A program made the translations under genes and the position numbers. From Bryobacterales bacterium (GTDB lineage: Bacteria > Acidobacteriota > Terriglobia > Bryobacterales > Bryobacteraceae), in the NCBI GenBank assembly GCA_025463005.1, contig JAOAPR010000103.1:1-64000 (forward strand): 64,000 nucleotides of DNA. Direction: 5' to 3'. The notes under the pieces were generated by a model that made no database searches, was not told the DNA's origin, and saw only the letters and a list, made by a program, of their open reading frames with translations. Positions 322 to 5,222 of the stretch are shown here, piece after piece; position 1 is the first letter of the stretch, and the number at the start of each line of letters is the position of its first letter.

Positions 322-2358
322 ATGTTTGTTTACGCGGCTACCATTTTCCTGAGCGCTTTCCTCCTGTTCCAGGTCCAGCCGATGATCGCGAAGTTCATCC
401 TCCCGTGGTTCGGCGGATCGGCCGCGGTGTGGAGCGCATCCCTGCTCTTTTTCCAGCTTTTATTGCTCGCCGGCTACCTCTACGCTCATTGCCTGATCCG
501 ATATCTCAAGCCCAAGCAGCAGATCGGCGTGCATCTCACGCTGCTCGCGATCAGCCTGATCACGCTTCCCATTATTCCGAAAGATTACTGGAAGCCCGCC
601 GGCGGAAGCGATCCGTTGTTGGGCATCCTCTTACTGCTGGGTGCCACCGTCGGGCTGCCCTACACATTGCTCTCCGCCACCAGTCCGTTGCTTCAGGCCT
701 GGTATCTGCGAACGCGAGCCGGCGTGATTCCCTACCGCCTGTTCGCGCTATCGAACTTCGGATCGATGCTGGCTCTGCTGAGCTATCCGTTTGTGGTCGA
801 ACCCAATATCGCCCTCCGTTCGCAAGCCCGGATCTGGTCGATAGGATTTGCCGCGTTCGCCGTTGCCTGCGCCTTAGCGGCCTGGAAAAGCCGCAGCGGA
901 ACCGATTCGTTACAGGCGGCCGCGCAAGCGGATGCTAAACCGCCCCGCTTCTCCACCATACTTTTGTGGATCTCTCTGGCCGCATGCGCTTCCACGCTGT
1001 TGCTGGCTACCACCAGCCATCTGACGCAGAACGTAGCGCCCATCCCGCTGCTGTGGATCGCGCCCCTGAGCATCTATCTGCTGAGCTTCATCCTCTCGTT
1101 TGAAAGCGACAAAATCTACCAGCGCTGGCTGTTCCTCCCGCTCGGCCTGGTTGCGCTCGGCGTGTTCGCCCGTGGCATGTCCCAGTACGAGGACAACGTG
1201 GACGTTATCAAGACGTTGATTCCTATGTTGTGCGGGGCGCTGTTCATCGCCTGCATGGTTTGTCACGGCGAACTCGCGCGCAGCAAGCCGCATCCGCGCT
1301 ATCTCACGCTGTACTTTCTGATGGTTTCGCTAGGCGGAGCGATTGGCGGATTATTCGTCGCGCTGATCGCGCCCCGGATCTTCCCCAACTACTGGGAGAT
1401 GCCGATCGCCATAACCGGATTAGGCGTGCTGATCGCCATCGTGCTTTCGTACGAGGATTCCGGCGCGCCTCGTCCGCTGGCCGTGCGCGCATCGTTGCTG
1501 ATTGTGGCGCTCTCCTTCGGCATCTATCTGGCTCGCCTGGAACGCCGCGCCAATCGGGAGTACCTTTTGGCAGCGCGCAATTTCTACGGCGTGCTGCGTG
1601 TTCGTGACGATGCCGCCGTAGACGGCTCTGGAGGAGTGCGCGTCCTGATTCACGGGACCATTAACCACGGCACACAACTCCTGGGTCCCGGAGGCGGCCG
1701 CATTCCGACCTCGTATTTCGGAGTCACTTCCGGCATCTCGCGCGCAATTCGCACCAAGGGCGAAGCCGGTCCCATACGGATCGGGATTCTGGGCCTGGGT
1801 GCCGGCGTTACCGCGACACTCGCCCGCGCCGGCGATACGCTGCACTACTACGAGATTAATCCTCTGGTATTTGAAATCGCGCAGACCAAGTTCGATTTCT
1901 GGAAATCCTGCCCCGCCGAGAAGCAAATATATTTCGGCGACGGCCGCCTGACGCTCGAGCGCATGCCGTCCAGTGAAAATCTCGATTTCCTGGCGATGGA
2001 CGCGTTCACCAGTGACGCCGTCCCCATGCACCTGCTTACGCGGGAAGCCTATGCCACCTACGCGCGCCATCTGAAACCGGACGGCGTTCTCGCCATCAAT
2101 GTCTCCAACAGGTACCTCGACCTGGAACCGATCATTGCCGAAGCCGCAAAAGAGATCGGGTGGTCCGGAATCGTGGTGTACGATGAAGGTTATTCCGAAA
2201 CGTTTTACGTTTCGAACACTTGGATTTTGTTGTCGAAGTCGCCCGCTGTTTTCGGTCATCCGAATTTTCAGGACTCCAATGCCTACGCGCTGCAGCCGCG
2301 CAAAGGGTTCCGGGCATGGACGGACGACTACAGCAATATCATCCAAATTTTGCGCTGA
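322..2358 (+). CDS. Membrane-anchored spermidine-synthase-like protein (copy 1)
   Basis: A 678-residue protein with about ten hydrophobic segments in the first 400 residues and a soluble spermidine-synthase-like domain at the C-terminus. The Rossmann part shows GLGAGVT near residue 490, the acidic YEINPL, GDGRLTL, and DAFTSDAVPMHLLTRE near residue 557, where polyamine aminopropyltransferases carry the catalytic Asp. Membrane-fused members of this superfamily are common but largely uncharacterised, so aminopropyl transfer is not assured. The start ATG at 322 gives a clean first membrane helix (IFLSAFLLFQVQP). A close paralogue follows after 12 bases, so the two are probably cotranscribed and arose by tandem duplication. 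Confidence 0.85.
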   Translation: MFVYAATIFLSAFLLFQVQPMIAKFILPWFGGSAAVWSASLLFFQLLLLAGYLYAHCLIRYLKPKQQIGVHLTLLAISLITLPIIPKDYWKPAGGSDPLLGILLLLGATVGLPYTLLSATSPLLQAWYLRTRAGVIPYRLFALSNFGSMLALLSYPFVVEPNIALRSQARIWSIGFAAFAVACALAAWKSRSGTDSLQAAAQADAKPPRFSTILLWISLAACASTLLLATTSHLTQNVAPIPLLWIAPLSIYLLSFILSFESDKIYQRWLFLPLGLVALGVFARGMSQYEDNVDVIKTLIPMLCGALFIACMVCHGELARSKPHPRYLTLYFLMVSLGGAIGGLFVALIAPRIFPNYWEMPIAITGLGVLIAIVLSYEDSGAPRPLAVRASLLIVALSFGIYLARLERRANREYLLAARNFYGVLRVRDDAAVDGSGGVRVLIHGTINHGTQLLGPGGGRIPTSYFGVTSGISRAIRTKGEAGPIRIGILGLGAGVTATLARAGDTLHYYEINPLVFEIAQTKFDFWKSCPAEKQIYFGDGRLTLERMPSSENLDFLAMDAFTSDAVPMHLLTREAYATYARHLKPDGVLAINVSNRYLDLEPIIAEAAKEIGWSGIVVYDEGYSETFYVSNTWILLSKSPAVFGHPNFQDSNAYALQPRKGFRAWTDDYSNIIQILR

Positions 2359-2370
2359 AAGTAGACTCTC

Positions 2371-4434
2371 ATGATCCTTTACGCCGCTACTATTTTTCTC
2401 AGCGCGTTCCTGCTGTTTCAGGTTCAACCGCTGATCGCCAAAATAATTCTTCCCTGGTTCGGCGGGTCCGCCGCTGTCTGGGCCGCCGCGCTGCTCTTTT
2501 TTCAAATTTCTCTTCTGGCCGGATACGCCTACGCCCACGCGCTTACAAAATTCGCCAAGGCTCGGACCCAGATGATGATTCACGGCGGGCTGCTGCTGGC
2601 AAGTTGCGCGCTCCTGCCGATCCTGCCCAACGTCTCCTGGAAACCGACCGCCATCGGCGATCCCACGCTGCGCATTCTGGAGCTGCTGGCCGCCACCATC
2701 GGACTGCCTTATTTTCTGCTTTCGTCCACCAGCCCCCTGCTGCAGGCCTGGTATGTGCGCCGCACCGGCAGCAGCGTCCCTTACCGGCTCTTCGCCCTTT
2801 CGAACTTCGGATCCATGCTTGCGCTGCTCAGCTTCCCGTTCGTGGTCGAGCCGAACATTGCTTCGCGCCAGCAGGCCTACATCTGGAGCACGGCGTATGT
2901 GGCGTTCGCTGCGTTGTGCTTATTCGCCGCATGGGTCAGCCGGAACAAGGCGGAAGGTGTCAATATTCCCGAAATCGCCGCCGTGAGCGCGGCGGAAGAC
3001 TCGAAGGCGGCCCGGCCGACCGGACTTCAGCTCCTCTTATGGATCAGCCTGGCGGCCTGCGCTTCGACGCTCCTGGTCTCGATCACCAACCACATGAGCC
3101 AGAATGTGGCGCCCATTCCGCTGCTCTGGGTCGTGCCTTTGGCGATTTACCTGTTGACCTTCATCCTCGCCTTTGAAAGCGACAAGATCTACCAGCGCTG
3201 GATCTTTTTGCCGTGGGTTGCTCCCGCGCTCGGCTGGATGGCATACGCGATTTATGCAGGCGAAGGAAATTTCCACATCAAGTATTCGATTCCCATCTTT
3301 TGCGCAGGGTTGTTCATCTGTTGCATGCTGTGCCACGGAGAGCTCGCGCTGCGTAAGCCGGCTCCCCAGTACTTGACGCTTTTCTACTTGATGGTGTCGC
3401 TGGGCGGCGCCATCGGCGGCATCTTCGTCGCGATCATCGCGCCGCGGATGTTCAACTCTTATCTGGAGCTTCCTATCGGCCTGGTTGCCTGCGGCGTTCT
3501 CGCAGTAATCGTTCTCTTCAACATGGAAATTCCCAGACTTGGACCGTGGCCGGTGCGCTTCGCTCTGGCGATCGGCGTCGGACTGTTGGCGGGATACCTG
3601 CTGCGCAAAGAGCTGGCGGATCGGCAAGGCTATCACCTGTTCGCCCGGAATTTCTACGGCGAGCTGCGCATCCGCGACGACGATGTCACCCAGGAATACG
3701 CCATCCGAAACCTGCTGCATGGGACCATCAACCATGGATCGCAGCGGCTCAACGAAGAGCACCGCTACGACGTGAATTCCTACTATGCACCCAGCTCGGG
3801 GATCGGACGGACCATGACCGCGAAGCAGGGGCTTGGTCCGGTTCGCTACGGCGTGATCGGCATGGGTGCGGGTGTGATGACCGGTTACTGCCGCGCCGGA
3901 GACTACGTACGCGTGTACGAAATCAACCCGCTAGTGAAGTCGCTTTCCGATCGCGGCGAGTTCACCTTTTTCTCCCACTGCGCCGGCGACAAACAGGTGT
4001 TCATGGGCGACGCGCGACTCACCATGGAAGCCCAGCCGCCGCCTAATTATGACGTGCTGGTGGTCGATGCATTTTCAAGCGACGCCATTCCCGTTCACCT
4101 CCTTACGCGGGAAGTGATGCAGACCTATTTCAAGTTGCTGAAGCCGGATGGCGTGCTGGCCGTGCACATTTCGAACCGCTATCTGGATCTGGCGCCGGTG
4201 TGCGCGCGGGGCGCGGAGTTCGTTCACAAGAAAGCCACCGTGGTGGCCGACGACGCCTCGGAAAACACCTTCGCCAACTCCACTACGTGGGTTCTCATCA
4301 CCTCCGAGGACAACAAGGTATTCCAGAACCCGAGTTTCGAGGGCGCGAACATGTACCCAGCTACCGCGGCCGCCACCTTTCGGGGTTGGACCGACGATTA
4401 CAGTAGCATCCTTCCGATACTAAGCTTGAACTAG
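2371..4434 (+). CDS. Membrane-anchored spermidine-synthase-like protein (copy 2)
   Basis: A 687-residue paralogue of the preceding gene with the same order: multi-pass N-terminal half, then a spermidine-synthase-like domain (GMGAGVMTGY, YEINPLV, GDARLTME, DAFSSDAIPVHLLTRE). The two copies agree almost residue for residue in the first helix (IFLSAFLLFQVQP, then WFGGSAAVW) and in the KIYQRW and FYGELRIRDD-type loops, but differ in linkers. That suggests an old duplication with both copies kept under selection. Its 3' end overlaps the convergent TIR gene by 15 bases. The substrate is unknown; a polyamine or other aminopropyl/methyl-type transfer near the membrane is inference. Confidence 0.85.
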   Translation: MILYAATIFLSAFLLFQVQPLIAKIILPWFGGSAAVWAAALLFFQISLLAGYAYAHALTKFAKARTQMMIHGGLLLASCALLPILPNVSWKPTAIGDPTLRILELLAATIGLPYFLLSSTSPLLQAWYVRRTGSSVPYRLFALSNFGSMLALLSFPFVVEPNIASRQQAYIWSTAYVAFAALCLFAAWVSRNKAEGVNIPEIAAVSAAEDSKAARPTGLQLLLWISLAACASTLLVSITNHMSQNVAPIPLLWVVPLAIYLLTFILAFESDKIYQRWIFLPWVAPALGWMAYAIYAGEGNFHIKYSIPIFCAGLFICCMLCHGELALRKPAPQYLTLFYLMVSLGGAIGGIFVAIIAPRMFNSYLELPIGLVACGVLAVIVLFNMEIPRLGPWPVRFALAIGVGLLAGYLLRKELADRQGYHLFARNFYGELRIRDDDVTQEYAIRNLLHGTINHGSQRLNEEHRYDVNSYYAPSSGIGRTMTAKQGLGPVRYGVIGMGAGVMTGYCRAGDYVRVYEINPLVKSLSDRGEFTFFSHCAGDKQVFMGDARLTMEAQPPPNYDVLVVDAFSSDAIPVHLLTREVMQTYFKLLKPDGVLAVHISNRYLDLAPVCARGAEFVHKKATVVADDASENTFANSTTWVLITSEDNKVFQNPSFEGANMYPATAAATFRGWTDDYSSILPILSLN

Positions 4435-4992
4435 GCGGCAGCCGGGCCTCCGCCCGGCTCGTCCCGCCTTTCGCACGGCTCGTACAACTTTCTTCATTCC
4501 GGCTTCCCAATCCGGGAACAAATCCACGTATTGAAGCTGTTCTGCGATCTGTAGAGGCACTACGCATTTCTCGAACCGCACCGGCACCAGGAATGTCGCA
4601 TCGAGCGGCCGCAGCCGGGCACACTCCAGAGCCCACCGCAGCTCGTTGTGGAACTGCCCTCGTTTTGCGATCGAGCGCCGAGAAAAGCACGCCACAAACA
4701 CGTCCGAGATTTCCACAGCCCGCCGGATCGCCCGAGGCCAGTTTTGACCGGGCAGCAGCTTGTCTTTGTCCAGCCAGGTCAAACACCCGGCGGCCACGAT
4801 TCCATCCCGCAGCCGGCGCGCCAGAGGCAGATCCTCCTGCACATACGCCAAGAAAACCTGCGGCTGTGTCTGAGGTATCAGCTCATAGCCGCGTCCAGAG
4901 GGCCGGAACATACCCAGGCCGTCGATCTCGACTGTCTGGCCGTCATCCAGAGCTCGGCGGACAATCGTTAGAATCTGTTTGCGAGCAGTCAT
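4420..4992 (-). CDS. Half-HU/TIR domain fusion protein
   Basis: A 190-residue protein. Residues 4-31 (RKQILTIVRRALDDGQ, then VEIDGLGMFRP) match the second helix and first beta strands of HU/IHF proteins, without the DNA-binding arms. Residues 44-160 form a TIR domain of the TIR_2 type: QVFLAYVQED opening strand, WLDKDKLLPGQNW, SDVFVACFS, and the helix with NELRWALE, where E117 sits at the catalytic Glu position of NAD-cleaving TIR domains. FLVPVRFEKCVVP follows as usual. ATG overlaps the stop of the upstream HU-like gene (ATGA), which points to translational coupling. NADase activity and a defence or nucleoid-stress role are inference. Confidence 0.8.
   Translation of the reverse strand: MTARKQILTIVRRALDDGQTVEIDGLGMFRPSGRGYELIPQTQPQVFLAYVQEDLPLARRLRDGIVAAGCLTWLDKDKLLPGQNWPRAIRRAVEISDVFVACFSRRSIAKRGQFHNELRWALECARLRPLDATFLVPVRFEKCVVPLQIAEQLQYVDLFPDWEAGMKKVVRAVRKAGRAGRRPGCRLVQA
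4440..4459. terminator. GC-rich stem-loop between convergent genes
   Basis: AGCCGGGC and GCCCGGCT form a perfect 8-bp stem with a 4-base loop. It lies just past the stop of the second spermidine-synthase-like gene and inside the last codons of the convergent TIR gene. There is no T-tract, so termination is only a possibility. Confidence 0.35.
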
Positions 4993-5171
4993 CGCGGGCC
5001 CGCGCGAGTCGCACGCGCGACTAGCTTTCCCATCCCTGGAAGATCCACGCGCTGACCGCGTCGCAGCTTCCTCACGATCCGGTGTACCAGCTCATCGACC
5101 CGGTCTTGGGCCACTGCCGGTGGCACCCGGGCTTCACGCGCCAGTTGCCGAGCCAGCTCTTCCTGTTTCAT
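4989..5171 (-). CDS. Truncated HU-like DNA-binding protein
   Basis: A 60-residue protein equal to the first half of HU. It has the two dimerisation helices (MKQEELARQLAREARVPPAV, then DRVDELVHRIVRKLRRGQ) and the VDLPGMGKLV strand that matches the GFGTF region of HU. It stops where the DNA-contacting beta arms should begin; complete HU is about 90 residues. It is the first gene of a two-gene unit, and its TGA overlaps the ATG of the HU/TIR fusion. HU subunits dimerise through just these segments, so pairing with the half-HU of the partner is a reasonable inference. The tail is basic (RATRAGPR). Confidence 0.7.
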   Translation of the reverse strand: MKQEELARQLAREARVPPAVAQDRVDELVHRIVRKLRRGQRVDLPGMGKLVARATRAGPR

Positions 5172-5222
5172 GCCCCCAGACTAGCTTTCGTCGGGACCAG
5201 CAACGCCGGCTTTTTCGGCATA

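Follow-up and report, generated by a model that had tools for sequence, protein, structure and literature searches.

Genes for an armless HU-like protein and a half-HU TIR protein side by side in the Bryobacteraceae: a candidate split-HU gate on a predicted NAD-cleaving enzyme

Why should a bacterial TIR protein begin with what resembles half of an HU domain, and be encoded directly behind a second, truncated HU-like protein? The question is raised by a locus of a Bryobacterales bacterium (GenBank assembly GCA_025463005.1), located in the first 64,000 nucleotides of contig JAOAPR010000103.1, forward strand; this whole stretch is called here the window. We report that the two genes recur together, that the first encodes an HU-like protein lacking the DNA arms of HU (mini-HU), and that the second encodes a TIR protein with a conserved, predicted catalytic glutamate behind an N-terminal HU-like segment (half-HU). 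The initial annotation described the locus as a bicistron with an ATGA overlap, and the two open reading frames (ORFs) were indeed found in this arrangement on the minus strand. The features are the following:

4989..5171, minus strand: mini-HU gene, ATG start, 60 amino acids, an armless HU-like protein (alpha1-alpha2-beta1) of net charge +8
4420..4992, minus strand: half-HU and TIR gene, ATG start, 190 amino acids, with a match to TIR_2
4989..4992, minus strand: start/stop overlap ATGA of 4 nt, indicating translational coupling; the −4 overlap recurs in relatives
4873..4986, minus strand: putative half-HU segment, residues 3-40, from the structural model and profile comparison; the last part of alpha2, then three strands
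4450..4860, minus strand: TIR domain, residues 45-181, from sequence and structure matches
4642..4644, minus strand: codon of E117, the predicted catalytic glutamate, from conservation and alignment to the TIR chain of 8ifk
5178..5183, minus strand: TAGTCT, a −10-like hexamer shortly before the mini-HU start, predicted to give the gene its own promoter and a leaderless mRNA

The recurrence of the pair was investigated in several samples of genomes. The first, consisting of the genome itself and 60 relatives, contained 37 genomes of the family of the window and 24 from outside it. A full-length TIR protein was found in 29 of the 37 family genomes, to which one fragment near a contig start is added, and in 0 of the 24 others, four of which have weaker TIR matches. 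At all 29 loci an HU-like ORF lies immediately upstream on the same strand. Genome records yielded 164 confirmed relatives, of which the best 80 were retained; the HU-like partner is directly upstream of the TIR gene in 79 of these best 80, and the sole locus without it begins 99 nt from a contig end, where it is cut off. The initial annotation had raised the question whether the coupled HU partner is conserved among homologues, and both samples answer that it is, the only exception being the contig-cut locus. A profile of the mini-HU, searched in 29 family genomes, found both genes adjacent in 24, neither in 5 and one alone in 0; the two genes are thus retained or lost as a unit. Among the five genomes with neither gene, two (G075 and G089) gave profile matches to distant HU-type genes, away from a full-length TIR gene. 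The HU-containing copy is single in each genome.

In a class-wide sample of 299 genomes, a match spanning the half-HU into the TIR domain was obtained in 55 of the 67 family genomes, three of these matches containing one stop codon, while 3 genomes gave a match to the TIR domain only and 9 none (in this tally, unlisted no-match rows were taken as non-family, the rows being ordered by kinship). A full-length match outside the family was seen in a single genome of this sample, G077. This pair (L188, G077:C71), assigned to another family, was rejected as likely coming from a contaminated bin, because its neighbours resemble by eye those of the window; it is still included in the class count. In a second sample, centred on another genus of the family, the full-length form was present in 18 of 25 family genomes, with one fragment besides, and in 0 of 16 genomes outside the family. 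A phylum sample of 396 genomes included three family genomes with matches; in non-family genomes no match begins before query position 36. The HU-containing form is nearly confined to one family, probably the Bryobacteraceae, as judged from the labels of the relatives. These labels read Bryobacteraceae, Bryobacterales, Solibacter- or Sulfopaludibacter-type, or no more than Acidobacteriota/Terriglobia; two are odd, Bordetella parapertussis (L074) and Acidimicrobiia (L092). The locus of these two is of Bryobacteraceae type and they are probably mislabelled metagenome bins. At 30 loci, the distances of the TIR protein follow those of UvrC (r 0.53), and those of the mini-HU also track UvrC (r 0.44), but the TIR protein more closely (r 0.71, partial about 0.63 by hand). 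From the distribution and this distance correlation with UvrC, we infer a vertical inheritance of the pair.

Both minus-strand ORFs are real genes. The ratio of nonsynonymous to synonymous substitution (dN/dS, NG86) was 0.00-0.30 in 12 pairs for the half-HU and TIR, and 0.07-0.18 in 6 of 7 pairs for the mini-HU, the seventh being saturated; between the mini-HU of the window and that of relative L002 it was 0.10. The overlap of −4 between the two ORFs is found at 34 of 79 loci in the genome records and at 20 of the 29 loci of the first sample. That the locus is one broken gene was rejected, as purifying selection acts on both ORFs and two separate ORFs recur in the examined loci; ORFs on the opposite strand were set aside on the same grounds, with no separate scoring. 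A programmed frameshift joining the two ORFs was also considered. The frame offset is 2 in 39, 1 in 33 and 0 in 7 of the 79 loci (hand tally), so that no fixed slip fits, which argues against frameshifting. Upstream of the mini-HU start, a TANNNT motif within 16 nt is present at 67 of 86 loci, compared with a mean of 7.2 and a maximum of 15 in shuffles (60 of 75 in the subset used below for the mini-HU model), and Shine-Dalgarno-like motifs are few (16 of 86). These motif counts suggest that the mini-HU gene has its own promoter and a leaderless mRNA and that the TIR gene is read by coupling.

The 60-residue protein is an armless mini-HU. It matches PF00216 (Bac_DNA_binding) with 28.6 bits, above the cut-off of 22.4, over profile positions 1-56 of 90; as the match ends at position 56, the protein stops where the arms begin, and the beta-ribbon DNA arms of HU are absent from it. 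Its length varies from 55 to 86 amino acids at the 79 loci of the genome records. A structural model was built on the 72-amino-acid mini-HU of relative L094, using an alignment (A4) of 75 of the 86 partners that omits the near-duplicate L015 and the divergent or extended L009, L010, L013, L016-L019, L027, L029 and L109. The model shows the alpha1-alpha2-beta body fold of HU and ends or turns at the base of the arm. The 50 Foldseek matches listed are HU/IHF-type chains with probabilities of 0.93-1.00, the best having an E of 4.7e-3 and a probability of 1.00. Their titles name HU, IHF or histone-like proteins, apart from 9f0y_C, 9a4h_B, 8flj_E, 1exe and a few more, whose titles name a complex or an organism and which were taken as HU/IHF-type; the best VIA match had a Z of 6.5 over 67 residues with a root mean square deviation (rmsd) of 3.0. 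Each of the 41 genomes searched has 1-4 canonical HU genes, which indicates that the mini-HU is not the packing protein.

The N-terminus of the TIR protein was compared with HU at the level of single sequences and of profiles. Single-sequence signals were below threshold (HU-HIG 13.0 bits, TIGR01201 16.8 bits), and PF00216 searched over the whole genome gave 12.8 bits at the half-HU, barely above the 12.1 bits of an unrelated-looking match elsewhere, so that such scores alone are insufficient to prove homology. The profile of the half-HU, however, aligned by hhalign to that of canonical HU with a score of 43.2 (P 5e-9; best of 200 column shuffles 24.9) and to that of the mini-HU with 51.9 (P 1e-11; best of 200 column shuffles 16.6), as compared with 9.2 for the TIR part against HU. 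The canonical profile was made from 32 presumed sequences minus two regex artefacts, with gap-rich columns removed. A smaller profile comparison (A1 against A2) gave a probability of 76% and an E of 2e-5. A model of the TIR protein, built from an 86-sequence alignment (mean pLDDT 89.1), places a helix at residues 3-16 and strands at 21-23, 27-32 and 35-40 ahead of the TIR fold, which is the helix-strand order of HU, the arm being replaced by a tight turn between the last two strands. The fold matches listed for this model cover mainly residues 41-181; the list is taken up by TIR structures, and HU does not appear in it for residues 1-43. By these profile alignments, the N-terminus of the TIR protein is homologous to HU beyond chance.

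That HU is split over the two proteins, as the initial annotation claimed, is borne out by the PF00216 match of the shorter one and the profile score of the half-HU, and where it expected an HU fold, at residues 4-31, the model has an HU-type helix-strand order (residues 3-40). Residue counts refer to an alignment (A3) of 86 rows, 29 from the first sample and 57 of the 79 from the genome records, the other 22 having been dropped as near-identical to the first 29. The best-conserved positions of the half-HU are G27 (86), F29 (84), G18 (83) and G25 (83); position 38 is Phe in 83 of 86 sequences and Leu in the protein of the window. Over the 86 pairs, the aligned half-HU is near neutral (mean charge −0.5, range −5 to 7) and the mini-HU basic (mean +7.6, range 0 to 17).

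The remainder of the 190-residue protein is a TIR domain, matching TIR_2 (PF13676) with 78.7 bits against a cut-off of 28. The top solved-structure matches of its model are TIR domains of SPARTA (short prokaryotic Argonaute with TIR-APAZ), 8ifl_A giving a VIA Z of 18.1 over 132 residues with an rmsd of 1.8, followed by MyD88, SARM1 and other TIRs; the best sequence match by E-value is 3h16, covering residues 41-114 only. The glutamate E117, highlighted by the initial annotation as that of TIRs cleaving nicotinamide adenine dinucleotide (NAD), lies at the position given there and is Glu in 85 of 86 sequences and Asp in 1. Counted by hand, it is aligned with residue 77 of the TIR chain in 8ifk. 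In PMC10474274, whose numbering we assumed equal to that of 8ifk, E77A is the catalytic mutant of TIR-APAZ and TIR self-association is required for activity. W73, D75, G82, W85, S104, F114, R119, P137, R139 and C143 are invariant (86 of 86). Six related TIR proteins from other genomes have other architectures, an FGE-sulfatase domain in two, a protein kinase in one, CarboxypepD_reg in one, and the TIR domain alone recognised in two. Two Acidobacteriota genomes, G575 and G589, contain 6 and 5 related TIR-domain matches (L197, L199 and further ones), of which one checked match each is fused to an FGE-sulfatase domain, likely a conflict-system expansion.

Co-variation of the two proteins was estimated over the 86 pairs. 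The divergence of the mini-HU correlates with that of the half-HU with r 0.586 (partial 0.375), higher than with the best of 92 equally long TIR blocks (r 0.519, partial 0.341), and the result also held in the 75-sequence A4 subset.

The genes surrounding the pair in the window are ordinary, encoding a chromate transporter, a short-chain dehydrogenase, an esterase, a PfkB kinase, a rhomboid protease, a glyoxalase and a radical SAM protein. Ten neighbouring proteins of the window yielded only weak mad2 matches in PADLOC and no Argonaute at E 0.001, and neither a STAND or NTPase regulator nor a mobile element was recognised among the scanned neighbours; the Rfam scan of the window was negative. 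On the plus strand (322-4434), running towards the TIR gene, are two tandem paralogues of about 680 amino acids, by our reading spermidine-synthase-like membrane proteins, with no Pfam match above cut-off and weak PADLOC mad2 matches; the second overlaps the 3′ end of the TIR gene by 15 nt (4420-4434), and a relative is found within 3 kb downstream at 10 of 80 loci. Within the same distance downstream, uvrC is present at 31 of 80 loci and a small TPR gene at 35 of 80 (71 of 80 have room), the TPR gene being convergent and placed between the pair and uvrC in the two inspected loci, L087 and L094. A link of the pair to DNA repair via uvrC is possible, and the recurrence may only reflect inherited gene order. 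These same two loci suggested a conserved queC/queE neighbourhood, which was dropped, queE lying within 2.5 kb upstream at only 2 of 80 loci (71 have room).

A horizontal or phage origin of the TIR protein was considered and rejected. No match was found among phages, none of 15 pattern matches in viral contigs was confirmed as a relative, and the 11 plasmid records matched start at query residues 21-45, covering mainly the TIR domain and in no case 80% of the query. The patchy distribution or defence-island context of a mobile defence locus is not observed.

How, then, could the two proteins work together? The account we favour, with slightly less than even confidence, is that of a coupled module in which the mini-HU pairs with the half-HU and gates an NAD-consuming TIR enzyme. 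The first gene would supply a basic, armless HU-like protein and the second a TIR enzyme bearing an N-terminal half-HU; the two would pair like the chains of an HU dimer, and this pairing would decide if stacking between TIR domains is possible. As TIR stacking is needed for the NAD-cleaving site, the mini-HU would act as holder and gate of the TIR NADase, until a cellular signal (stress, nucleoid state or infection) releases the enzyme and NAD falls. The SPARTA TIR acts by self-association, so that a partner on the N-terminal tail could separate or join the domains. A hetero-oligomer of mini-HU and half-HU would agree with the constancy of the partner, the complementarity of the HU parts and their difference in charge. 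We infer the NAD cleavage, the HU-HU pairing and the trigger; the direction of control by the mini-HU is a guess. The wider proposal, a near-core NAD-depletion switch of the whole family whose sensor and lock is an HU dimer split between the armless HU and the half-HU-TIR NADase, appears doubtful to us; if true, such a switch would connect an assembly of nucleoid type with NAD metabolism or with programmed cell death.

Several observations weigh against the gated module. The full-length form is absent from 12 of 67 and 7 of 25 family genomes (one of the 7 has a fragment), so this form is not essential. The mini-HU model, made on a relative, is of modest confidence (pLDDT 65.5), and none of its matches reaches an E of 0.001 in Foldseek or a Z of 8 in VIA. 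The mini-HU also correlates with the whole TIR part at 0.610, slightly above the value for the half-HU, and the co-variation is suggestive only, the TIR blocks overlapping and the sequences being related.

Many bacterial TIR enzymes are defence effectors, and the pair could accordingly serve in anti-phage abortive infection, the mini-HU, perhaps through a basic tail, sensing phage DNA or nucleoid collapse and triggering the TIR NADase. The basic character of the mini-HU would suit this role, as would the similarity of the TIR part to the PADLOC models TIR-pAgo (E 2.8e-14) and SAVED-TIR (3.7e-6), and the FGE-sulfatase and kinase domains seen in three of the six related TIR proteins, types that PMC8195603, in its accessible part, names in conflict systems. 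We nevertheless consider it unlikely, the pair being common in one family with one HU-containing copy per genome, its window neighbours ordinary, uvrC or a TPR gene repeatedly downstream, no phage or confirmed viral-contig relative having been found, and the plasmid matches mainly those of the TIR domain. The initial annotation had supposed that the small HU might sense phage DNA; this is possible but unsupported, because neither HU part has DNA arms and the pair is distributed like core genes. Phage defence is no likelier than a stress or housekeeping switch. A plain antitoxin, with the mini-HU blocking a toxic TIR enzyme mainly to keep the locus in the genome, would account for the small gene coming first, the tight coupling and the joint presence and loss, but the locus is single-copy, no mobile element was recognised among its scanned window neighbours, both genes are under strong constraint, and the distances of both also track UvrC; we hold this to be quite unlikely.

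Some TIRs are scaffolds, and in the WxxxE motif an aromatic residue stands four places before the Glu. The invariant F114 stands three places before E117, and the TIR domain could thus be no NADase, acting instead as a scaffold or as the maker of a signalling nucleotide, with the HU parts serving only for oligomerisation. The near-complete retention of the Glu and the many invariant TIR residues make this improbable. As HU proteins self-dimerise, each module could also dimerise alone, the two genes being merely co-expressed, the mini-HU as a minor nucleoid protein and the half-HU as an independent self-dimerising handle. This is very hard to reconcile with the finding of a mini-HU without the TIR gene in 0 of 29 family genomes, and every genome searched already has canonical HU genes. 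The gated module remains our preferred reading. The common, single-copy status of the pair raises the question of why a family of soil bacteria keeps a potentially lethal enzyme in its normal genome.

The pair resembles several known systems and differs from each. HU-CCDC81 and HU-HIG are divergent HU clades for which non-packing roles have been proposed, and the mini-HU and half-HU are likewise divergent; however, both the mini-HU and the TIR protein score below the cut-offs of those models, and we know of no TIR fusion of either clade. With HU/IHF (PF00216) the mini-HU shares a score above the Pfam cut-off and an HU-like fold, but it ends before the arms, the half-HU has a tight turn in their place, and the parts are linked to an enzyme by fusion or pairing. 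Effector-associated domains (EADs), the small adaptor modules of bacterial conflict systems described in the accessible text of PMC8195603, are similar in that a small adaptor is found by itself as well as joined to an effector, which suggests recruitment of like by like; that text uses neither the term "HU domain" nor "HU superfamily", and the scanned neighbours of our pair include no STAND/NTPase regulator.

In the 2023 PADLOC models there was no whole-protein match, the best one (TIR-pAgo) covering profile positions 5-134 of 430 with the TIR part only, and no match to the mini-HU; PADLOC, NCBIfam and Pfam gave no model matching the HU-TIR combination, and none of the titles listed in searches of the open-access literature describes the pair. 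Together with the other architectures of related TIR proteins, this points to a TIR enzyme with an adaptor of its own, in the form of a split HU that lacks arms. A further comparison is with SPARTA, whose TIR domains are the top structure match, whose Glu falls in the same column in full-length alignments and which is likewise an operon with a regulatory partner; here, by contrast, neither Argonaute nor APAZ was found, the protein ends after the TIR domain, the partner is an armless HU, and the pair is core-like in one family. In well-studied TIR enzymes the control is exerted by large sensors, for example Argonautes, NLR-like proteins or cyclic-nucleotide receptors. The only partner seen to be conserved here is an armless HU of 55-86 residues, the enzyme carrying the complementary half-HU, and if their pairing gates the enzyme, the system would represent a minimal device for controlling TIRs that cleave NAD, and would put the HU fold to a use other than DNA packing.

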